DNA of 35,156 bases, taken from a virus. Position numbers and translations under genes: made by a program. The DNA is taken from positions 1 to 35,156 of the IMG/VR virus record IMGVR_UViG_3300045051_000195; one strand, 5' to 3'. Positions 4,073-32,007 of the stretch are shown one piece after another. Under the pieces are notes generated by a model, which saw nothing but the letters and a program-made list of their open reading frames with translations, did no database searches and was not told the DNA's origin. The first letter of the stretch is position 1, and each line of letters starts with the position of its first letter.

Positions 4073-6237
4073 TGGCTTGGGAAGTAGTAGATGAGCCAGT
4101 TGAAACACCCGCTCGCCCTGCGCCTACGATGGTGTTCAAGTCCGGGGAGACTGCAACGTACCCCGTTCCCTACGAGGTCCCCTACCCTGACGCGCCGGAT
4201 TTAAACACTCTGACGAAGCCGCCGACGTTCATGGAAAGCATGAAACACGGCTCTGCGAAGCTTGGAACCGGCATTACCCAAGGGCTTATGCGGGTGGGCG
4301 AAGCCGTCGGCATCCAGCCCGAAGGCGCGACGAAGGAATGGACTGAGGCGCAGAACAGGATAAACGCCGAGTACGAAGCGAGGCGCGGCCCTGATGCTGG
4401 CTTTGATTACGGCTCTCTTACGGGAGAGATACTGACCACGGCCCCCGCTGGTGCGCTCCTCGGCACGACCCCCCTCGGCCCTCTTTCTCAGGGGCTTGTC
4501 GGCGGCGCGGCTGTAGGCGCGACGGAGTTCAACCCGGATACGAAGGAACCCGTCAAATCCTTTCTCAAAAACACCGCCGTAGGCGCTGGCAGCGGCCTTG
4601 TCGGCACTGGCGTCGGGATAGGGTTGCTGAAAGCTGGCGGCGCAGGTTTTAAAGTCCTCGGCTGGGGCGCGAACAAGATGGCCCCTATCGCCCGCAAGGC
4701 TGCCGTCAAGCTCGGAATGACGCTCGACAAACTTCCCACCGACGAGGAGATGGCGCAGTATTTCAGCAAGGACTTGGTAGGTAAAGAACTTGGCACCTGG
4801 CGCAAGGGCGTAAAGTCCACGATGAAAACGCTCTCCGATGATGTTGCCCCGCTGGTAGAAGGCGCGGGGGTAAAAGAGTTCGACGCCCTTCCCGACTCGG
4901 TAAAGCTCAAGGTCTTTCAGGAGGCCAAGCGGCAGATCAAGGTTGGCGAGGTCAACCCTGCGCAGCTTGCCCGCGTAGCCATTTTCGAGTCTTACGGCAT
5001 AAAGCCGACGCAGAGCGTTTTGAAGCAGAGCGCCACGTTGGCGGAGAACGAAGCAAATCTTGCGGCAATAAACAAGATAGGCGCACCTCTACGCGCTGCG
5101 GAAACGAAGGTGGCGGGAGGTCTTCATTCTCGCGCCTCGCGCCTTGCTGCCGACATGGGCGGCAAGATAGAGCCCGGCGAAGGGGTAGCGGTAGGCCAGA
5201 ACGTAATGGACGCCGTGGAAGGCCGCTGGGCGGTAATGCAGACCGAAATAGGCAAGATTTACGATCAGGTGATGAAGAAGTATGCCGGGAAGCCCGTCCT
5301 TCTTGCCGAGTCTCAGGCGTTCAACGCGGGAATGGCTAAAAGCTCATTCAGCAAACGCTTTGCCCAAGTAGCGGAGTCCGGCGACCTGAATCTGGTCAAG
5401 CGCCTGCGTTCCGACATCCAGAAGGCGGCGAAAAGCGCGGGCGGCTCTGAGCGTTACGACCTGATGCAGCTTGTGGACAAAATCGACGAGGACGTATCTT
5501 ACAGCCTCGGTGACGACGTTTTTTCCGTAGGCAAGGAGGCAGCGGCGGGGCGTTTTTTTGAGCAGCAAGGCGCTAAAATCGCCAAGAACATCGAAGCTGA
5601 CTACGGCCCCGCCGCCATTATACGCAACATCCGTAACGCGAAGGAGCCGGGAGAAATTCGCCACTTGCGGGAAGTCCTCGTTTCCGACAGCACCCTCCTC
5701 AACACCCCCGAAGGCGTTGAAACGCTTCTCAAGGGCAAGCAGGCGTGGAAGGAAATCCAGACCGACGCGGTATCCGAATCCATCCTCGGCGCTTTTCAGG
5801 CGGGCGACGAGGGGATGTTTGTTGACCCGTCCAAGATAAAGCCCCTTCCCCGCGAGATAATCAGAGAGCTTTTCGCCGGAGAACCCGCGAAGCAGGCCCA
5901 GTATTACGACATAATCAACATGATTGAGGCCGTAGCTTCTCCGAAGAAGGGCGTGAAACTCACCGAGGATAGTTCCATTTGGACGAAGCTGCTGCAAAGC
6001 GTCCGGGGCTTTTTCTACCTCAGTTCCGACGTAGGCAGCGCCCGCGTGGCCTCGCCGAATCTCAGTTTCGACATAGGGAAGAAGGCTATGGTGCGCGGCG
6101 CTCTATCCGGCAGCACGGTATCGCCCACGGAGCTTACCCGCGCAGCCGAAAAGGGCGTACAGAACGCCATAATGCCGTACCTTGCTCCCGCAGCCGGGGC
6201 TACAGGAACATCCATCTTCCCGCAAGGAGGCCGTTAA
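4072..6237 (+). CDS. Putative DNA-ejection protein with glycine-rich membrane-active segment
   Basis: A 721-residue protein read from ATG 4072, which overlaps the previous stop (TAATG); GGGAGGTGG lies just upstream. A GTG at 4054 is in frame but less likely. The first 35 residues are proline-rich with an MVFKSGETATYPVP phrase. About residues 95-205 form a long Gly/Ala/Leu/Val-rich stretch of repeated small-residue helices, as in phage ejection proteins that cross the host envelope. The rest is helical and charged, with LARVAIFESYGIKPTQS near residue 300. It is the largest and last of three candidate ejection genes, in the position of P22 gp16. I see no lytic transglycosylase motif. Confidence 0.55.
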   Translation: MAWEVVDEPVETPARPAPTMVFKSGETATYPVPYEVPYPDAPDLNTLTKPPTFMESMKHGSAKLGTGITQGLMRVGEAVGIQPEGATKEWTEAQNRINAEYEARRGPDAGFDYGSLTGEILTTAPAGALLGTTPLGPLSQGLVGGAAVGATEFNPDTKEPVKSFLKNTAVGAGSGLVGTGVGIGLLKAGGAGFKVLGWGANKMAPIARKAAVKLGMTLDKLPTDEEMAQYFSKDLVGKELGTWRKGVKSTMKTLSDDVAPLVEGAGVKEFDALPDSVKLKVFQEAKRQIKVGEVNPAQLARVAIFESYGIKPTQSVLKQSATLAENEANLAAINKIGAPLRAAETKVAGGLHSRASRLAADMGGKIEPGEGVAVGQNVMDAVEGRWAVMQTEIGKIYDQVMKKYAGKPVLLAESQAFNAGMAKSSFSKRFAQVAESGDLNLVKRLRSDIQKAAKSAGGSERYDLMQLVDKIDEDVSYSLGDDVFSVGKEAAAGRFFEQQGAKIAKNIEADYGPAAIIRNIRNAKEPGEIRHLREVLVSDSTLLNTPEGVETLLKGKQAWKEIQTDAVSESILGAFQAGDEGMFVDPSKIKPLPREIIRELFAGEPAKQAQYYDIINMIEAVASPKKGVKLTEDSSIWTKLLQSVRGFFYLSSDVGSARVASPNLSFDIGKKAMVRGALSGSTVSPTELTRAAEKGVQNAIMPYLAPAAGATGTSIFPQGGR

Positions 6238-16348: not shown

Positions 16349-17692
16349 TTAAAATCTCCTATCTTCAAGATTAGCCACCCGGCAGTATTTACCTTGGAAA
16401 GAAACGCTCACGTCGCCGGTTCGCCCGTTACGCTGCTTTGCAACCATTATGTCCAAAACCCCCTGTTTCTCCGGGGAAGTGTCCTTTTTCTTGTAATGCT
16501 CCTCCCGGTACAAGAGCCAAATCATGTCGGCGTCCTGCTCTATTTCGCCCGAATCCCGAAGATCGGAGACTATCGGGATAGGAGGCTTTCTCTCCTCGCA
16601 CTTGCGGTTAAATTGCGACAGGACGATTACCGGAACATCCAGTTCTTTTGCCAGACTTTTAAGCCCTCGCGTAGTTGCGCCAACATCTTCCGTTCGAGTT
16701 GAGTTTTTATGACCTGCAACATGGTTCATCAACTGTAAATGGTCAATCCCGAGGTAAGATAACGATTTAGGGCCGTGGGACAGAACGTATTTCTGAGCCT
16801 GTAATTTTATATATTCCAGTGAGACGCCGGGGGTGTCGTCTATAACAAAAGGCGCGTCCGATATTCTGGTAGCTGCTTGGCTTAACGGCCCCCAATCGCT
16901 CTCCTGCATCCTGCCGGTATGAATCTTGGTAAAATCAATGGACGACAACGAGGACGCCATTCTGGCGACGTACTGCGAACGCGTCATCTCGAGCGAGAAC
17001 AACATCCCCGGCTTCCCGCAAACGATTGAAATATGCTGCATGAGCGCCTGCAAAACTGTTGATTTCCCCATTCCTGGACGGCCCGCAATGATTACCAAGT
17101 CGCTAGCCATCGGCCTTGCAAATTCGTCTATTTCGTAGAGCCCGGTCTCAAGGCCGAAAACGCCGCCATCCCTATGCTTCTTTTCCAGTTCCTTAATAAA
17201 CTCCAAGCATATCTGCTTCGAGGTGTAAAGGCCCCCAGTCGAGTTCACATGAAGCAGCCCTTGGTTAAACTTCCCCAAGAGGTCGGAAACGTCGCCTTCG
17301 GTATGGTAGGCCGACTGCTCGAGCTGCCGCGCCGAGTTTATCAGCCGCCTTCGCCCTGCCAGCTTCTTCACCTGATCGGCGTAATGGTTGACGTGGGCCA
17401 GCGAGGGGACTTGGGTCGTCAACTCAACCAGATAGGATGTTCCTCCTATCTTCTCAAGCCCGCCTGTTTCCCGCAGGTAATCAACAACCGTTACGAGGTC
17501 GAGCGGGGTATTCTTGGCAAGCATCTTCCTAAAGGCATCGAACAAGAGGCCGTGGGCGGTACGGTAAAAGTCCGTCGCCTTCAAATCCCACGGCATCGTC
17601 TCGTTCTTTAGAAGCACCCCGCCAAGGACTGCTTGCTCCGCTTCGATAGAATGCGGGGGAACCTGAGAAGAAACGGATCCACCGCTATTCAT
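16349..17692 (-). CDS. dnaB: DnaB-like replicative helicase
   Basis: A 447-residue hexameric DNA helicase that would unwind the phage genome at the fork. Residues 11-115 form the DnaB N-terminal domain (HSIEAEQAVLGGVLL). The RecA-like motor has Walker A GRPGMGKS (204-211), the FSLEMTRSQ segment (232-240), Walker B LGIDHLQLM (314-322), VIVLSQFNRKCE (355-366) and DLRDSGEIEQDAD (377-389), then AKQRNGRTG (418-426). Length is close to bacterial DnaB (about 470). I see no primase domain and no loader gene beside it, so host primase and possibly loader are likely used. It follows the HTH gene in the - strand operon and is followed by the nuclease. Confidence 0.92.
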   Translation of the reverse strand: MNSGGSVSSQVPPHSIEAEQAVLGGVLLKNETMPWDLKATDFYRTAHGLLFDAFRKMLAKNTPLDLVTVVDYLRETGGLEKIGGTSYLVELTTQVPSLAHVNHYADQVKKLAGRRRLINSARQLEQSAYHTEGDVSDLLGKFNQGLLHVNSTGGLYTSKQICLEFIKELEKKHRDGGVFGLETGLYEIDEFARPMASDLVIIAGRPGMGKSTVLQALMQHISIVCGKPGMLFSLEMTRSQYVARMASSLSSIDFTKIHTGRMQESDWGPLSQAATRISDAPFVIDDTPGVSLEYIKLQAQKYVLSHGPKSLSYLGIDHLQLMNHVAGHKNSTRTEDVGATTRGLKSLAKELDVPVIVLSQFNRKCEERKPPIPIVSDLRDSGEIEQDADMIWLLYREEHYKKKDTSPEKQGVLDIMVAKQRNGRTGDVSVSFQGKYCRVANLEDRRF

Positions 17693-17729: not shown

Positions 17730-17945
17730 TTATCTTACGATGTCGCGTACCGAGAGGTCGAGGAGGTCGGCAACGGCAGTCGGCACTTTCGGCAGTTGCG
17801 CCCCCTTCTCCCATAGGGCAATCGCGGCAGCCGTCACCTTGTAGCCTCTGCCCGTAAGTTTCTTGGACAAATCTTCGAGCGACAAACCCTTGGCGGTTCT
17901 CGCTGTCCTGATTTTTTCTCCCTGTACCGTAAAGGGGCAATTCAT
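17730..17945 (-). CDS. HTH repressor-like regulator (XRE family)
   Basis: A 71-residue protein read from ATG 17945, with GGAGG ten bases upstream. It is almost entirely one Cro/CI-type helix-turn-helix domain: IRTARTAKGLSLEDLSKKLT, then VTAAAIALWEKGAQLPKV. It lacks the C-terminal cleavable (LexA/peptidase S24) domain of CI-type repressors, so it is more like Cro or a small repressor. It opens the - strand operon ahead of DnaB and sits beside the divergent control region, so it probably acts on the promoters at 17984-18139. Confidence 0.8.
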   Translation of the reverse strand: MNCPFTVQGEKIRTARTAKGLSLEDLSKKLTGRGYKVTAAAIALWEKGAQLPKVPTAVADLLDLSVRDIVR

Positions 17946-17983
17946 TCTGGTCTTCCTCCGAATGGTGGTTTGCGATATTCGAC

Positions 17984-18012
17984 ACAATAAATAGTTGGCT
18001 GGCGAAGGTCAA
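17984..18012 (-). promoter_or_regulatory. Promoter of the - strand early operon
   Basis: On the - strand, TTGACC (18012-18007) is followed by exactly 17 bases and TATTGT (17989-17984), about 40 bases upstream of the HTH gene start. A good sigma70-like match in the right place. Not tested. Confidence 0.6.
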
Positions 18013-18178: not shown

Positions 18179-18946
18179 GTGAAGACAAAAGAGAAACCGA
18201 TAACAGGATTTAAAGCATTCAACTCCGACATGACTTGCCAAGGCTTCCAGTACGAAGTCGGCAAAACCTACAAACATGACGGCCCCGTCGAATTGTGCCG
18301 CTCGGGTTTCCATTTTTGCGAAAACCCGCTCGACGTACTGAACTACTACGATCTCACCACGAGCAAGTTTGCCACAGTGACAGCGCGAGGCTTAATATCA
18401 AGGGCCTCTGACGGCGACTCAAAGGTTTGCGCCGCCGAGTTGAGCGTTGACGCCTGCCTTACCTTGCCGGAGTTTGTCGCGTCCTCCGTCCAGTGGATGC
18501 TCGACTTCTGCAAATCAAAAAAGCCCGCCTCCGGGCACTACAGCAATCTCGCCGCCTCCGGGTACTCCAGCAATCTCGCCGCCTCCGGGTACTCCAGCAA
18601 TCTCGCCGCCTCCGGGGGCTCCAGCAAACTCGCCGCCTCCGGGGACTCCAGCAATCTCGCCGCCTCCGGGGACTCCAGCAATCTCGCCGCCTCCGGGGGC
18701 TCCAGCAATCTCGCCGCCTCCGGGCACTACAGCAAGCTCGCCGCCTCCGGGGGCTCCAGCATCGCGGGAGGGGTAGCTCACGGGTGCAGGGCGATGGTGG
18801 GAGAAAACGGCACAATCGTATTGTCTCGCTGGGTGGAGAGCGAAAAGAGATGGCGCGTTTCAGTCGGCTACACAGGAGAGAACATTAAACCGAACATCTG
18901 GTATAAACTGGACGACGAGGGGAATTTTGTGGAGGTCGAGGGATGA
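18179..18946 (+). CDS. DUF7666-type protein with nine 9-residue repeats
   Basis: A 255-residue protein starting at GTG 18179, with a strong AAGGAGG upstream. The N-terminal domain (about 8-110) has the pattern GFKAFNSDMTCQGFQYEVGK and ELCRSGFHFCENPLDVLNYY, which I know as a phage domain of unknown function (DUF7666). Residues 117-197 are nine near-identical units of A-S-G-x-[SY]-S-[NK]-L-A, which could stack as a beta solenoid. The C-terminal 55 residues (GTIVLSRWVESEKRW) look like a small beta domain. It is the first gene of the + strand early operon and its stop overlaps the exonuclease start (ATGA). Role unknown. Confidence 0.75.
   Translation: MKTKEKPITGFKAFNSDMTCQGFQYEVGKTYKHDGPVELCRSGFHFCENPLDVLNYYDLTTSKFATVTARGLISRASDGDSKVCAAELSVDACLTLPEFVASSVQWMLDFCKSKKPASGHYSNLAASGYSSNLAASGYSSNLAASGGSSKLAASGDSSNLAASGDSSNLAASGGSSNLAASGHYSKLAASGGSSIAGGVAHGCRAMVGENGTIVLSRWVESEKRWRVSVGYTGENIKPNIWYKLDDEGNFVEVEG
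18527..18769 (+). repeat. 27-bp tandem coding repeat (nine units)
   Basis: Nine consecutive 27-base units encode the 9-residue repeat. Most differ by only a few bases, with changes mainly at residues 4, 5 and 7 of the unit. Such near identity suggests recent copy-number change by slippage or recombination. Confidence 0.9.
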
Positions 18947-21341: not shown

Positions 21342-21932
21342 ATGTACGAATTTATCATGGAAAAGCTCCCCGTCAAACAGGCTTGCGGGTATTGCTCTAA
21401 GGACGAATCCCGCGCCTACCTCACCGGCATCAAAATTGAGCCGGGGAATACCGGTAAAATAATCGCCACAGACGGGCATCGGCTGTTCATGTGCCCGAGC
21501 CCGGTCGTTCAGGCGGAAGGGGATTCCCGCCCCGACAAGGACATCATCCTGCGGATTTACGGCCCCGTCGGTACGTCAAAGAAAACCCCCTACCTGCATA
21601 TCTCCATCGGCGAGGATGGACGCGGGCTGGCGCGGGAGGTCGCAAGCGCGCTGATAGATATTCCCCGGCATGACGGCAAAAAGGTCTACTCCTGCGAAGT
21701 GGTAGACGCCGTTTTCCCCGCTTACGAGCAGGTGCTTCCCTCTTGCGAGCCCGTCGCAACCAACCGGCTCCCCCTCATAAACGCCGACTACCTGAAACAG
21801 GCGCTTACCGACCTCCAGAAGTGGGGCGGCGTGGATATGCGCTGGGAGAGCGAGAACGCGCCGGTAGAACTTAAAAGCGATCACCCCGAAGGCCCGACGG
21901 TAGTCATCATGCCGAAGCGCCGTCGAGATTAA
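21342..21932 (+). CDS. Short beta-clamp-like (DNA polymerase III beta) protein
   Basis: A 196-residue protein with the hallmark ATDGHRL (42-48) preceded by YLTGIKIEPG, and a C-terminal VVIMPKRRRD (187-196) corresponding to the end of bacterial beta clamps (VIMPMR). Bacterial clamps have three domains and about 366 residues; this one has room for one or two. It may be a reduced phage clamp, or a decoy that binds the clamp loader or polymerase. It lies in the recombination/replication operon of a phage with no polymerase gene, so interaction with host Pol III is plausible. Confidence 0.75.
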   Translation: MYEFIMEKLPVKQACGYCSKDESRAYLTGIKIEPGNTGKIIATDGHRLFMCPSPVVQAEGDSRPDKDIILRIYGPVGTSKKTPYLHISIGEDGRGLAREVASALIDIPRHDGKKVYSCEVVDAVFPAYEQVLPSCEPVATNRLPLINADYLKQALTDLQKWGGVDMRWESENAPVELKSDHPEGPTVVIMPKRRRD

Positions 21933-22005: not shown

Positions 22006-22122
22006 ATGGAAGCAACGCTGCGAGAGCAACTGAAAGAGGCTACGGAGCAGATATGCACCGGGTGTCTTGCCGACGATTGCGAAAACTGCGAATTTAGGGA
22101 GGAAGAGAATAAAAATGACTGA
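22006..22122 (+). CDS. Small four-cysteine protein (38 aa)
   Basis: A 38-residue frame preceded by GAAGGAGGAAGG, with CTGCLADDCENCEF (two CxxC pairs) likely to bind zinc, and an acidic C-terminus. Its last 8 bases overlap the next gene's start. Too short to place in a family. Confidence 0.6.
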   Translation: MEATLREQLKEATEQICTGCLADDCENCEFREEENKND

Positions 22123-22684
22123 GCAAGGCACATACGAAACCTACTCCCTCCGGCACACTCGCGGCTTTCCTATTCACGAGGAGGTTATCGGCGGGATGCG
22201 TATCAGCCTGGGAATGTACGTGGGCGAGCCGGTAGCACCTCCTCCCCGCTATGAAAAGCGCGGCGCGAATTGCCTCGCCAGTAAAATCCGGTTCAAGATG
22301 AGCAAGCAGGGGTTGACCTACGAGGGCTTGGCCGAGCGCCTTGCCCTACCCCTCCCCGAGTTCCTTGCTCTTATCTACGCCCCGTTTGAAGCCCTCACGC
22401 CGGAGTTTAAGAAGGCGCTTCGGGAGGCAGCCCCTACTCACTGGGTAACGAAGGACGAACTGGGGCGGATTAAAGACCATATGGCAAAGACCGGGTTGAT
22501 GTTCAAGGACTGCGCCGCCAAGACCGGATATCACCTCGGGACTATCTCGGCCAGGCTTAACGGGCGGAACTGGATCACCGCAGAGCAGTACGCCAACATC
22601 TGTGCAGGGCTGGGTATAGCGCCTAAGCCGTTTGAGGAAGTGACCGTGGCGAAGTTTCTTTTCGATGAAAATCAATCGGCCTGA
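22115..22684 (+). CDS. Protein with two helix-turn-helix-like segments
   Basis: A 189-residue protein from ATG 22115 (overlapping the previous stop; GGGAGG upstream). Residues 55-105 (SKIRFKMSKQGLTYEGLAER onward) and 115-165 (IKDHMAKTGLMFKDCAAKTG, then ISARLNGRNWITAEQY) both look like XRE-type DNA-binding helices. The first 50 residues are unrelated and proline-containing. A tandem HTH layout suggests a regulator that could bind a two-part operator, perhaps switching early to late genes. Assigned from pattern only. Confidence 0.55.
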   Translation: MTEQGTYETYSLRHTRGFPIHEEVIGGMRISLGMYVGEPVAPPPRYEKRGANCLASKIRFKMSKQGLTYEGLAERLALPLPEFLALIYAPFEALTPEFKKALREAAPTHWVTKDELGRIKDHMAKTGLMFKDCAAKTGYHLGTISARLNGRNWITAEQYANICAGLGIAPKPFEEVTVAKFLFDENQSA

Positions 22685-24079: not shown

Positions 24080-24346
24080 TTATTCTGATTTCAGCCGGTC
24101 GATTTCCTTAAGCAGCTCGAAGACGATGCCCACGTATGGCGGAATGGCTCTCTCTCCCAGCCGCCAGCGCCGGATATTCTGCGGAGTCACGCCTAAAGCG
24201 GCTGCGGCGTCCTTGGCAAAACGCCAGCGTTTGATTTCCTCGGTGAACTGTTCGGCGGTCATGGCAGAGCTTTTATGTGCTACTTCGCCGGGATACATTT
24301 TCTCCTTAACCGTTATTTTCACTTGTTTAGTCTTTGTAAAAAGCAT
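24080..24346 (-). CDS. HTH regulator at the end of the accessory operon
   Basis: An 88-residue protein whose C-terminal half is a helix-turn-helix: RWRFAKDAAAALGVTPQNIR followed by RWRLGERAIPPYV, then an acidic helix. The first 30 residues are basic and probably flexible. AAAGGAGG precedes the ATG. It is the last gene of the - strand accessory operon, where phages often keep a self-limiting repressor of that operon (as Aca proteins do for anti-CRISPR genes). Which promoter it controls is unknown; the one at 26878-26906 is the obvious candidate. Confidence 0.75.
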   Translation of the reverse strand: MLFTKTKQVKITVKEKMYPGEVAHKSSAMTAEQFTEEIKRWRFAKDAAAALGVTPQNIRRWRLGERAIPPYVGIVFELLKEIDRLKSE

Positions 24347-26554: not shown

Positions 26555-26830
26555 TTAGGCCGTCCTCAACTCGGGATTATTGGGGTACGTTGGGTGGGAC
26601 ACGCAGTGTCTTTCCCTGTTAGAAAGTTCCCCTTTTTGGGTGATAAAAAAGTCAGTATTGTTTAACCAGTCGGAGTCACTGGAAAACAGGAGCGGGTAGC
26701 TATTCCCGTTGGGCATGGGTTTACGCGCCCAGTCGGGTATATGCTCGCCTGTGTGACGATGGACAAAACGCGCCTTTGCTTCTTCCTGTAGTTTGCGGCA
26801 TAGGTGAGAGCCGTTGATTAACATGGTCAT
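26555..26830 (-). CDS. Conserved phage early protein (91 aa)
   Basis: Read from ATG 26830 with AAGGAAGG upstream; a longer in-frame start would run into the promoter. This protein type is common in tailed phages: RFVHRHTGEHIPDWARKPMP, NGNSYPLLFSSDSDWLNNTD and a KGELSNRERHCVSHPTYPN end. Function unknown to me. It is the first gene of the - strand accessory operon. Confidence 0.75.
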   Translation of the reverse strand: MTMLINGSHLCRKLQEEAKARFVHRHTGEHIPDWARKPMPNGNSYPLLFSSDSDWLNNTDFFITQKGELSNRERHCVSHPTYPNNPELRTA

Positions 26831-26877: not shown

Positions 26878-26906
26878 AGACTACCACTCCACTGGAACGG
26901 CGTCAA
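26878..26906 (-). promoter_or_regulatory. Promoter of the - strand accessory operon
   Basis: On the - strand TTGACG (26906-26901), exactly 17 bases, then TAGTCT (26883-26878), about 48 bases before the first gene. A CTTGAC/GTCAAG inverted repeat brackets the promoter, suiting operator control. Confidence 0.6.
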
Positions 26907-27184
26907 GGGAATAGGTAAATTATTTTTACGGATCGATAAAATAAATAAGGCTGGCTCTTATGCGACAAAAGGCCCCAAAAAGTATATAAGGAGGCTTAAT
27001 AAGCTTATTAACGGCTTATTAATTTTATTCGTGTTACGAATAGCTTATGCGTAGCACAAACTGGGTTAATTAACCCACCTGAGACCTCGACTGTAGAATA
27101 TTCTACACATTGTAACGCTTGTATCACAAAGGAACCGTTACAAGCATTACAAGCAGACAAAAATAAGCTCCAAAAAAATAGTTC
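26907..27184. other. Palindrome-rich, AT-rich non-coding region (control region or origin candidate)
   Basis: No convincing gene. Perfect palindromes: 26996-27011 (TTAATAAGCTTATTAA), 27063-27076 (GGGTTAATTAACCC) and 27092-27107 (TGTAGAATATTCTACA); an interrupted one at 27027-27041 (ATTCGT-GTT-ACGAAT). A larger imperfect inverted repeat spans 27109-27153, with TTACAAG twice in its right arm (27138-27144, 27147-27153). The order between divergent operons and the low GC suit protein binding for transcription control or replication initiation; neither is shown. Confidence 0.5.
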
Positions 27185-27215
27185 TTGACAACATACCCCT
27201 TTCCCCCCTTACAAT
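27185..27215 (+). promoter_or_regulatory. Probable promoter of the packaging/late genes
   Basis: A perfect TTGACA (27185-27190) and TACAAT (27210-27215) are separated by 19 bases, longer than ideal. It points toward the terminase genes. A C-rich spacer lies between. Confidence 0.5.
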
Positions 27216-27231
27216 CCCCCCATACCTATAT

Positions 27232-27259
27232 CGGCTCCCGCCCTGAAGGCGGGGAGCCG
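27232..27259 (+). promoter_or_regulatory. Strong hairpin in the late leader
   Basis: CGGCTCCCGCC, loop CTGAA, GGCGGGGAGCCG pair with one bulged base, just downstream of the promoter at 27185-27215. No T run follows, so it is probably an RNA structure for stability, antitermination or processing. A second hairpin, GC-capped with a T/A stem, lies at 27326-27349. Confidence 0.5.
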
Positions 27260-27423
27260 CTAGATAAGTAAGTACTTATATGTAAGAGTTTTACAAAATT
27301 TTAAAACCCGCGAAGAGAGACAAGCCGCTTTTTTTTTGAGAAAAAAGCGTCTATCCACATAAGGTGGTAAGACGTAAGAAACCAACCGTAAGATCACCCC
27401 CAGCCAAGGGAGGCACAAAGCGA

Positions 27424-27513
27424 ATGGTTAAAAGCGGAACCCCAAAACGCGGGGGCAAGTGCTACGGCCTCCAGCCCTCCAAAACCCCCAAGTCAAAAGC
27501 GGGCAGGGAATAA
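27424..27513 (+). CDS. Possible 29-residue basic protein before terminase
   Basis: GGGAGG precedes ATG 27424; the 29-codon frame ends directly at the small terminase start. The peptide is very basic (VKSGTPKRGGKCYGLQPSKT), suggesting nucleic-acid binding. It may alternatively be a leader for translational coupling. Confidence 0.45.
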   Translation: MVKSGTPKRGGKCYGLQPSKTPKSKAGRE

Positions 27514-28011
27514 ATGAGTGCTTCCCGTCCACGACTTGACGAGACTTGGACTCCCGCAGCTGCAAAGGCAGCACTCCAAGCGTATTTCGATGACGCAGAC
27601 ACCAGTGAAAAGCCCAAGTGTAATTCTGGCATAGCCCTCACCCTCGGCTGTTCCCTCCGTATACTACAAAGGTATCTCGTTGAACGCGAAGACTCGCCCC
27701 TCTACCCTGTAATAGAGTGGGCCTTCACTACGGTAGAACTGCAAGACGAAGAGTTGATGAAGACGCCAGGGAATAGAAACTCAGGCGGTCCGATGTTCGC
27801 CCTCAAAAACCGAGGTTGGAAGGATACCCAGACGATCGACCAGAGCGTAAGGGTTACGGACTCCACCGCCGACCTGTTTAAAGCCCTGGAATCGTCGGAT
27901 TTGTTTAGCCTGACTAAAGATTTACCCTCCTCGCCTCCTGTTCCGGCAGCTTCTGCGCCTTCCGTTGAGAGCAAGGCGGATAAGTCTAATGATTCCGGTG
28001 ACTTACATTAA
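27514..28011 (+). CDS. terS: Terminase small subunit
   Basis: A 165-residue DNA-recognition subunit of the packaging motor. The central region has ITLGC-like HTH character (GIALTLGCSLRILQRYL), and GGPMFALKNRGWKDTQTIDQ is the recognisable small-terminase phrase near residues 90-110. The C-terminal 45 residues are Pro/Ser-rich and probably flexible. It begins right after the small basic frame and leads the virion operon, ahead of the large subunit. In headful phages the packaging start (pac) often lies in or near this gene. Confidence 0.8.
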   Translation: MSASRPRLDETWTPAAAKAALQAYFDDADTSEKPKCNSGIALTLGCSLRILQRYLVEREDSPLYPVIEWAFTTVELQDEELMKTPGNRNSGGPMFALKNRGWKDTQTIDQSVRVTDSTADLFKALESSDLFSLTKDLPSSPPVPAASAPSVESKADKSNDSGDLH

Positions 28012-28209: not shown

Positions 28210-28287
28210 GTGGATTATACCTATTGTGACGCGTGTGGCGGGGTCGTGGAGAACGGCAAGTGCATCAAGTGTGGGGCAGGATGCTGA
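28210..28287 (+). CDS. Micro zinc-ribbon protein (25 aa)
   Basis: GTG 28210 after a strong GGAGGGAGG opens 25 codons with YCDACGG and KCIKCGAGC, two CxxC pairs spaced like a tiny zinc ribbon. The ribosome site and the zinc pattern together make it credible. Role unknown. Confidence 0.5.
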   Translation: MDYTYCDACGGVVENGKCIKCGAGC

Positions 28288-30142: not shown

Positions 30143-32007
30143 AAAAAGACCACGCTGAATGGCGGGCGAATAAGCCCAAGGAAGTCAAAGAAGCCGAGAA
30201 AAAGGCGCTCAAACGCTTTGACCAGTGCGTGTCCGCCGACAGTTTCGACCGTGCCAACGCTCTTGACGATTTTCGGAACTACGCGGGGCAGCAGTGGGAT
30301 TCCCGCGATTTGGAGGAACGCCGCCAGAACAGGCGTCCCGCACTCACCATAAACCGCCTTGTGCAGCCCGTCCAGCAGGTCGTAGCTGAGATAAGGGCGG
30401 GCAAGATAAGCCCTACCGCACTTCCCGTAGACAGCGTGGCCGATCCTGAGAAGGCCAAGGTTGTCGAAGGGCTCCTGAAAGACATCGCCTACCAGTCCAA
30501 AATGGAAGTCTGCTACGAGCAGGCCGGGGAGAACGCCGCCCGGTGTGGTCGCGGCGCTTTTCGCGTCGTCACAGAGTACGAAAGCGCCGATACTTTCAAT
30601 CAGGTAGTGCGCGTCCGCCCCATTGAAGACCCGTTTTGCGTCTACTGGGACCCGGCAGCCAAGGAATACGACAAATCCGACGCCAAATTCTGCTTTGTAA
30701 CGGAGTGGATGGAGAAGGAAGAGTTCAAGGACACCTACGGCGACGACGCCACAGAGTTCGACGGCGCAGCCCTTGGCGACAACTCCGTATGGTCGCTTGA
30801 CGGGCAGTGCCGACACGCAGAGTACTGGGAGAAGCACTGCGAGGAAGAGGAGCTTTGGCTTCTTGAGGACGAAAACGGCGAGACGGTTACGGTAAAAGCA
30901 TCCGAATCCCCGGCAAAAAAAGACCTTGAAGCCAACGGGATACGCATACTCCGCAAACGGACGGTAAAAAAGGTCACTCTCAAGAGGTGGATACTTGGCG
31001 GAGCCGGGTTTTTGTGCCCCGCCGAAGAGTTCCCCGGCGAATACATCCCCATCATCCCCGTTTTCGGCCCGACGCTCCTCCTGGACGGCAAGCGCCAGCA
31101 CTGGTCGGTCATACGCCACGCCAAAGACCCGCAGGCCATGTACAACTTCTGGACTTCGGCCATTACCGAGGCGGCGGCGCTGGCCCCCAAAGCTCCCTAC
31201 ATGGTCACTCCGAAGCAGATTCAAGGTGTCGAGTCGCTTTGGCAGATGGCGAACCGTACCAATCTCCCCTACCTCGTTTACAACCCCGACACCAACGCCC
31301 CCGGCCCGCCTGCCCGCTCAGGCGGCGTAGACGTTCAGCCCGCCATGATCCAGCAGGTCATGCAGGCCGGAGACGACATCAAGGCCGTTACGGGCATCCA
31401 CGACGCATCCCTGGGTATGCCGGGGAACGAGACAAGCGGGTTGGCTATTCAGTCCCGGCAGAGCGAGGGCGACTCCGCCACTTTCGTCTGGATTGACAAC
31501 CTGCATCGGTCAGTCGAACACGCCTACAGGGTCATTGCAGGGCTGATACCGACCATCTACGACACGCCGAGAACGGTCAGGATAGTAGGGGAGAAGGAAG
31601 CCGAGCAGTGGGTAGCTATAAACCAGCCCAACGCCGTCACAGGTAGCGTGGACAACGCCCTGGATGGCAAATACGACGTGCGGCTGGTAGTCGGCCCCGC
31701 CACCAAGACGCAGCGGCAGCAACGGGCGCAGGTTCTTTCGCAGCTTATTCAGGCCGCGCCGCAGTTCGCATCCGCATTCGCCGACCTCTTGGTGGAATCG
31801 CTCGACTTCGACCGTTCCGCCGAGGTGGCGGAGCGCATCCGCAAACTTTCCGAGCCGCAGCCGCCTTCGCCCGAGAAGGTGCTGGAGATGAAAACGAAAG
31901 AAGAGACACTAAAAGGCAAGGAACTCGTCAACTGGCAGCGTCAGGACGAGATAAATCACCACATGGGTGGGCAGGACGAGCCAGAGGGCTTCGTAAACCC
32001 CGCTTAA
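30139..32007 (+). CDS. P22-like portal protein
   Basis: A 622-residue protein forming the twelve-part ring for DNA entry and exit at one head vertex. It shows the P22-type pattern: ALDDFRNYAGQQWDSRDLEE, RPALTINRLVQPVQQVVAEI, YEQAGENAARCGRGAFRVV, the VYWDPAAKEYDKSDAKFCF segment and, further on, GNETSGLAIQSRQSEGDSAT. ATG 30139 overlaps the terminase stop (ATGA); ATG 30130 would add three residues. P22 portal is 725 residues, and this one lacks most of the long C-terminal barrel; the C-terminus is a Glu/Lys-rich helix. Confidence 0.88.
   Translation: MKKDHAEWRANKPKEVKEAEKKALKRFDQCVSADSFDRANALDDFRNYAGQQWDSRDLEERRQNRRPALTINRLVQPVQQVVAEIRAGKISPTALPVDSVADPEKAKVVEGLLKDIAYQSKMEVCYEQAGENAARCGRGAFRVVTEYESADTFNQVVRVRPIEDPFCVYWDPAAKEYDKSDAKFCFVTEWMEKEEFKDTYGDDATEFDGAALGDNSVWSLDGQCRHAEYWEKHCEEEELWLLEDENGETVTVKASESPAKKDLEANGIRILRKRTVKKVTLKRWILGGAGFLCPAEEFPGEYIPIIPVFGPTLLLDGKRQHWSVIRHAKDPQAMYNFWTSAITEAAALAPKAPYMVTPKQIQGVESLWQMANRTNLPYLVYNPDTNAPGPPARSGGVDVQPAMIQQVMQAGDDIKAVTGIHDASLGMPGNETSGLAIQSRQSEGDSATFVWIDNLHRSVEHAYRVIAGLIPTIYDTPRTVRIVGEKEAEQWVAINQPNAVTGSVDNALDGKYDVRLVVGPATKTQRQQRAQVLSQLIQAAPQFASAFADLLVESLDFDRSAEVAERIRKLSEPQPPSPEKVLEMKTKEETLKGKELVNWQRQDEINHHMGGQDEPEGFVNPA

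Follow-up and report, generated by a model that had tools for sequence, protein, structure and literature searches.

The origin of replication of phage lambda is built from 19-bp inverted-repeat iterons and an AT-rich tract (PMC7466680). The 33-34 intergenic region of mycobacteriophage BPs carries palindromic operators between divergently transcribed operons (PMC4557955), and the pac site of SPP1 comprises repeats upstream of the small terminase gene (PMC4737164). The locus considered here, a cluster of palindromes in an AT-rich intergenic segment upstream of a small terminase gene, shares something with each of these systems. It belongs to a virus record (a virus of bacteria), and the DNA of 35,156 nucleotides that was analysed, referred to below as the window, is a whole phage genome, complete and circularised, the first 177 bases of which match the last 177 with two mismatches, giving a length of ~34,979 bp. 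The palindrome cluster is a real, non-random feature, and since AT-rich DNA packed with repeats occupies the corresponding position in distant relatives, the cluster very probably serves as a genuine control site, be it a replication origin, a gene switch, or both. The reading that we tentatively favour is that of an origin-type protein-binding site inside a divergent promoter region.

Genome layout and the palindrome cluster

The head genes of the phage are P22-like and comprise a small terminase with a gp3 packaging-protein domain, a large terminase, and a portal protein, the best matches of which come from podoviruses of Vibrio, Shewanella, and Rhodoferax at ~36% identity. A DnaB-type helicase, RecE- and RecT-like recombination proteins, and an endolysin are encoded as well, and neither an integrase nor an O-like initiator was recognised among the phage proteins scanned. 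The blocks and genes are laid out as follows:

27.5 kb through the circle to 14.1 kb, plus strand: virion and lysis block
18.0-14.2 kb, minus strand: block of HTH and helicase genes
16349-17692, minus strand: DnaB helicase gene
17730-17987 and 24080-24346: HTH proteins (Cro-like)
22067-22684: a further HTH protein
18.2-24.0 kb, plus strand: recombination block
26.8-24.1 kb, minus strand: small-gene block
26555-26830, minus strand: first gene of the leftward operon, hypothetical protein of 91 aa
27514-28011, plus strand: P22 gp3-like small terminase subunit (by domain match); the virion operon has no recognisable gene before it

The layout around the cluster is divergent, with the leftward genes starting at 26830 (minus strand) and the small terminase at 27514 (plus strand). 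A homologue of the first leftward gene product, 59.6% identical, is encoded in the early region of the T7-like Pseudomonas phage vB_PsyP_3MF5, where it adjoins an ArdA-like antirestriction gene, and this placement suggests that the leftward operon is expressed early. Two tiny possible genes flank the small terminase, namely a basic 29-aa frame at 27424-27513 that ends just before its start and, as read from the sequence, a possible 25-aa CxxC-CxxC peptide at 28211-28287 that follows it. Elsewhere in the genome, 27-base tandem repeats (18525-18761) lie within the gene of a DUF7666 protein (18179-18946), and a 196-aa protein encoded at 21342-21932 weakly resembles the sliding clamp of DNA polymerase III, its best PHROGs family being that of a RusA-like resolvase.

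Between the two divergent operons, the following elements are found:

26906-26878, minus strand: putative leftward promoter, TTGACG-17-TAGTCT, placed by eye, with a weak -10
26996-27011: P1, perfect 16-bp palindrome TTAATAAGCTTATTAA
27014-27022: extra half-site GCTTATTAA beside P1
27026-27042: interrupted palindrome TATTCGT-GTT-ACGAATA (7+3+7)
27062-27077: P2, perfect 16-bp palindrome TGGGTTAATTAACCCA
27092-27107: P3, perfect 16-bp palindrome TGTAGAATATTCTACA
27110-27123 and 27139-27152: arms TTGTAACGCTTGTA and TACAAGCATTACAA of an imperfect inverted repeat, 93% complementary
27138-27145 and 27147-27154: tandem TTACAAGC
27185-27215, plus strand: putative rightward promoter, TTGACA-19-TACAAT, placed by eye, with a perfect -35 and a long spacer
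27232-27259, plus strand: strong hairpin CGGCTCCCGCCCTGAAGGCGGGGAGCCG, rich in G+C, close to where the predicted rightward transcript would begin

The whole set of dyads spans ~157 bases, with centres at 27003.5, 27034, 27069.5, 27099.5, and ~27126-27131, that is 27-36 bp apart, and the three perfect palindromes lie within 112 bases (26996-27107). An earlier note on this DNA had listed three perfect palindromes of 16, 14, and 16 bp; the count stands, while the middle one (27062-27077) measures 16 bp rather than 14. The interrupted palindrome and the large imperfect inverted repeat with its tandem element were both recovered as described there, the latter at 27110-27154, where it is composed of two TTACAAGC copies and two degenerate inverted copies. 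The view that no gene accounts for the region also holds, the open frames that cross it being short (67 and 50 aa) and taken as spurious, as does the claim that the region is far more AT-rich than the genome: its G+C content is 0.356 against 0.572, no other 200-bp segment of the genome is as rich in A+T as 26981-27180 (65%), and the AT-richest 300 bp also fall within the region. The divergent promoters that the same note placed on either side are plausible by eye, but the promoter scan listed neither of them. It returned only weak matches (5 against 2.2 expected, sd 1.6), among them the -10-like TAGAAT that P3 presents on both strands, flanked left and right by hexamers that resemble a -35. 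P2 and P3 overlap such weak promoter-like matches, and the palindromes are clear of both flanking by-eye core promoters. The leader ahead of the small terminase folds unusually well (z-score -4.46). A P2-type Ogr site, TGT-N12-ACA, was seen by eye at 27111-27128 and is too short to weigh.

The scan of all 35,156 bases yields four perfect palindromes of at least 14 bp, three of them in the cluster, and only three of at least 16 bp, all in the cluster. A first-order Markov simulation that reproduces the local base composition and nearest-neighbour frequencies gave at least three palindromes of at least 14 bp in one of 20,000 trials, and at least three of at least 16 bp in none. Four dyads in 200 bp were encountered at only two other loci across 3.5 Mb of other loci. 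Each palindrome is the sole match to its own sequence genome-wide, even at up to three mismatches; this includes the interrupted one, for which ~0.6 chance matches would be expected at that tolerance. As far as can be judged from sequence, the palindromes would not be repeated operators of one protein, because each matches only itself at three mismatches.

The same place in distant relatives

No close relatives were found via the large terminase, capsid, portal, neighbour genes, or DNA. The 81 viral contigs that hold an exact copy of P1 look like chance matches in AT-rich DNA, none of the 81 holding P2 or P3. Distant relatives, with ~35% portal identity to the window, were reached by alignments of the large terminase and portal. 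These records are fragments or drafts and mutually related, so that counts drawn from them are not independent. Of 27 shorter portal-homologue loci, 18 have their AT-richest 300 bases no further than 2.6 kb ahead of the large terminase, compared with 5 expected, and in 7 of the 10 long contigs with both genes the overall AT maximum lies 1.2-2.1 kb before the large terminase, as against 1.73 kb in the window (it is elsewhere in the other three).

Dyad arrays, defined as at least three similar 16-bp dyads within 160 bp, occur six times upstream of the large terminase (84 kb) and not once in 401 kb elsewhere, with the reservation that the array in L279 is G+C-rich low complexity, to be discounted, and that several array loci share one clade. 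The same detector returns nothing in the window, because the dyads there differ from one another. Dyads of the sequence GTTAGTGNNCACTAAC, spaced 23-27 bp apart, were seen in three relatives in one pattern scan, to which a record-wide scan added two more, and L273 also carries a GTTAGTGNNCACTAAC unit. The clade formed by L278, L294, L280, L274, and L277 has iterated dyads, a perfect DnaA box, and the AT maximum at the syntenic place: the box lies 24-97 bp from the GTTAGTGNNCACTAAC array in all five clade records scanned, on its downstream side in L280 and on its upstream side in L278 and L294, and is the only one, or one of two, per record. Three TCGACAAAANTGTCGA dyads are present in L227, and six CTAAGACTTAG dyads together with six TGTAGGTCAT repeats in L310 (G015), dyads and repeats all lying in the gap upstream of the small terminase. 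The dyad sequences (GTTAGTGNNCACTAAC, TCGACAAAANTGTCGA, CTAAGACTTAG) are lineage-specific. In two contigs ten-base repeats are restricted to that gap, TGTGGGTCAT in L278 (5661-5998) and TGTAGGTCAT in G015 (5468-6033), and in G016 a tandem repeat of 10-11 bases is located there along with the majority of the TAGTCA hexamers. A short unit, GGCGCTCGACC, is matched 16 times in the small-terminase upstream gap of G016 (36,203 bases), running across the contig ends.

A leftward promoter with a 12/12 consensus match is found ~430 bp from the array in L278, and a rightward promoter-like match ~120 bp past the last dyad in L294; the arrays are therefore off the predicted core promoters, unlike simple repressor operators. 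That distant relatives keep an AT maximum and, in several lineages, iterated palindromes fits an origin and an operator region alike, and an origin is favoured by the DnaA box that accompanies the array in one clade. In another phage group (L149, L156, L160-L162, L164, L165), a candidate origin is marked by between one and three perfect DnaA boxes, e.g. TTATCCACA, TGTGGATAA, and TGTGGATAA ~40 bp apart; they lie ~300-450 bases ahead of the large terminase match, within the last part of the gene before the large terminase or shortly past it.

A possible origin-type site and its alternatives

In the origin-type reading, the cluster would act in cis as a protein-binding site that separates the leftward operon from the rightward virion operon, and would be the positional counterpart of the AT-rich segment full of repeats that distant relatives have ahead of their small terminase gene. 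We infer protein binding to the dyads, a start of replication at the cluster, and loading of DnaB there, in that the dyads would be occupied by dimeric DNA-binding proteins, be it an initiator or regulator of the phage or possibly factors of the host, the AT-richest tract beside them would open, and the phage DnaB helicase (16349-17692, minus strand) would be loaded at this tract. Occupancy of the dyads would at the same time affect transcription in both directions.

The earlier note had left the choice between an origin and a multi-operator switch, and both stand in part, with the skew, the DnaA boxes, the distance to dnaB, and the lack of true iterons speaking against an origin in this genome. 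Cumulative GC skew, which the note proposed as a check, has its minimum at 18748 and its maximum at 31016, with no extremum at the cluster; the test is confounded by gene direction, which the skew at four-fold sites tracks, and is therefore weak for this genome. In the genome scan no perfect DnaA box was found near the cluster, where single-mismatch forms only are present, e.g. CTATCCACA at 27351-27359. The only two perfect boxes of the genome (12184-12192 and 12402-12410) are 218 bp apart in opposite orientations, within coding sequence where the virion block ends. The cluster and the dnaB gene are separated by 9.3 kb, and no initiator gene adjoins the cluster. The iterons claimed by the note were not borne out, 8-, 9-, and 10-mers with one or two mismatches being no commoner than in composition-matched shuffled sequence (P 0.1-0.5); a candidate iteron, GCTTRTWA, has five of its six copies in the region, but composition-matched sequence is equally repetitive. 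Compared with an iteron-type origin, the window thus has the AT-rich tract beside its repeats and lacks at least three near-identical initiator repeats, which the relatives do have, a DnaA box nearby, which is present in one clade of them, and a GC-skew extremum. Searches for RNA families and tRNA genes returned none. A parS site is also a 16-bp palindrome, and no ParA/ParB-like protein was recognised among the proteins scanned; a Xer/dif-like site, looked at by eye, was unconvincing.

The origin reading is marginally preferred, with the operator reading close behind. According to the latter, which we regard as a serious possibility, the cluster would be a purely transcriptional multi-operator region that balances the leftward against the virion operon without a role in replication, different dimeric regulators (the Cro-like HTH proteins of the phage, or host proteins) taking one palindrome each. 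Its place between divergent operons, the HTH proteins encoded by the phage, and the fact that unlike palindromes suit different dimeric regulators all agree with this, as do the TAGAAT on both strands of P3 with its flanking -35-like hexamers and a rightward promoter that has a perfect -35 but a 19-bp spacer and so may need an activator. Yet the palindromes overlap neither flanking by-eye core promoter (26878-26906, 27185-27215), the arrays of L278 and L294 behaving likewise, no palindrome has a second copy ahead of the HTH genes or elsewhere in the genome, and the promoter-like matches are without clear excess. In the relatives, the arrays set apart from the predicted core promoters, the AT maximum, and the DnaA box jointly resemble an initiation site more closely than they do repressor operators, whereas the lack of a DnaA box and the unlike dyads of the window render the transcriptional reading almost as likely. 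A bidirectional promoter with a symmetric -10 was considered and rejected, as the TAGAAT pair of P3 would set the starts ~13 bp apart, which is not among the common start-to-start distances of 18, 10, or 23 bp (PMC12825309).

The cluster lies directly upstream of the P22 gp3-like small terminase gene (27514-28011), and this adjacency is what would be expected of a pac site, in which the small terminase recognises repeats upstream of its own gene for headful packaging. The repeat sequences vary by lineage, as co-evolution with the terminase might produce, and the relative contig G005 begins 43 bases before its own array. We nevertheless consider packaging an improbable explanation: the pac site of P22 is located inside gene 3 itself, the isolated DNA-binding domain of the SF6 terminase shows no preference for pac repeats, an AT maximum and a DnaA box are not predicted by a pac site, and the circular assembly has no fixed end here, the 177-bp overlap being elsewhere. 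Even less credence is due to chance, i.e. to an AT-rich spacer that holds palindromes without function; palindromes do arise more often in AT-rich DNA, but none of the composition-matched simulations reached three of 16 bp, and AT maxima and dyad arrays recur at the same place in relatives, which together leave this explanation a very small share.

The origin-type reading can be extended into a more general and, taken as a whole, rather unlikely proposal, in which phages with this P22-like portal would combine a replication origin and an early/late switch in a single site, located in the gap before the small terminase. This site would keep its location and its design (AT maximum, dyad array) while the sequences of the dyads are replaced entirely from lineage to lineage, and the window, where no two dyads are alike, would mark the extreme, as if self-complementarity outweighed sequence. 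Should the site be an origin, it would provide a locatable replication start for a large group of uncultivated podovirus-type phages without a recognised initiator, as well as a simple rule for finding others, namely an AT maximum and dyads before the small terminase. Should it be an operator cluster, it would mark the control point of the leftward and virion operons. Either way, the fast turnover of dyad sequences at a fixed place could be traced by comparison.

Comparison with described systems

The pac site of SPP1 shares with the window the presence of repeats upstream of the small terminase and differs in that its repeats are direct, whereas those of the window are palindromic. The divergent operator regions of temperate phages, such as lambda OL/OR and BPs 33-34, resemble the locus in having palindromes between divergent operons. 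In contrast to them, the window has no repressor gene adjoining the cluster, its palindromes are mutually different and do not recur in the genome, and no integrase was recognised among the window proteins scanned.

The lambdoid origin (ori-lambda, with its O-protein iterons) is alike in pairing a few short dyads (4-6) with an adjacent AT-rich tract, in a phage reliant on a DnaB-type helicase (PMC7466680). The iterons of lambda are, however, near-identical, imperfect, and situated inside gene O, while the window has intergenic dyads that are mostly perfect and unlike one another, and no protein resembling the O initiator was recognised. Iteron plasmid origins, finally, consist of a DnaA box, iterons, and an AT-rich tract; unlike the window, which is without a perfect DnaA box and a repeated sequence, the clade of relatives L278/L294/L280/L274/L277 has all three at the syntenic place.
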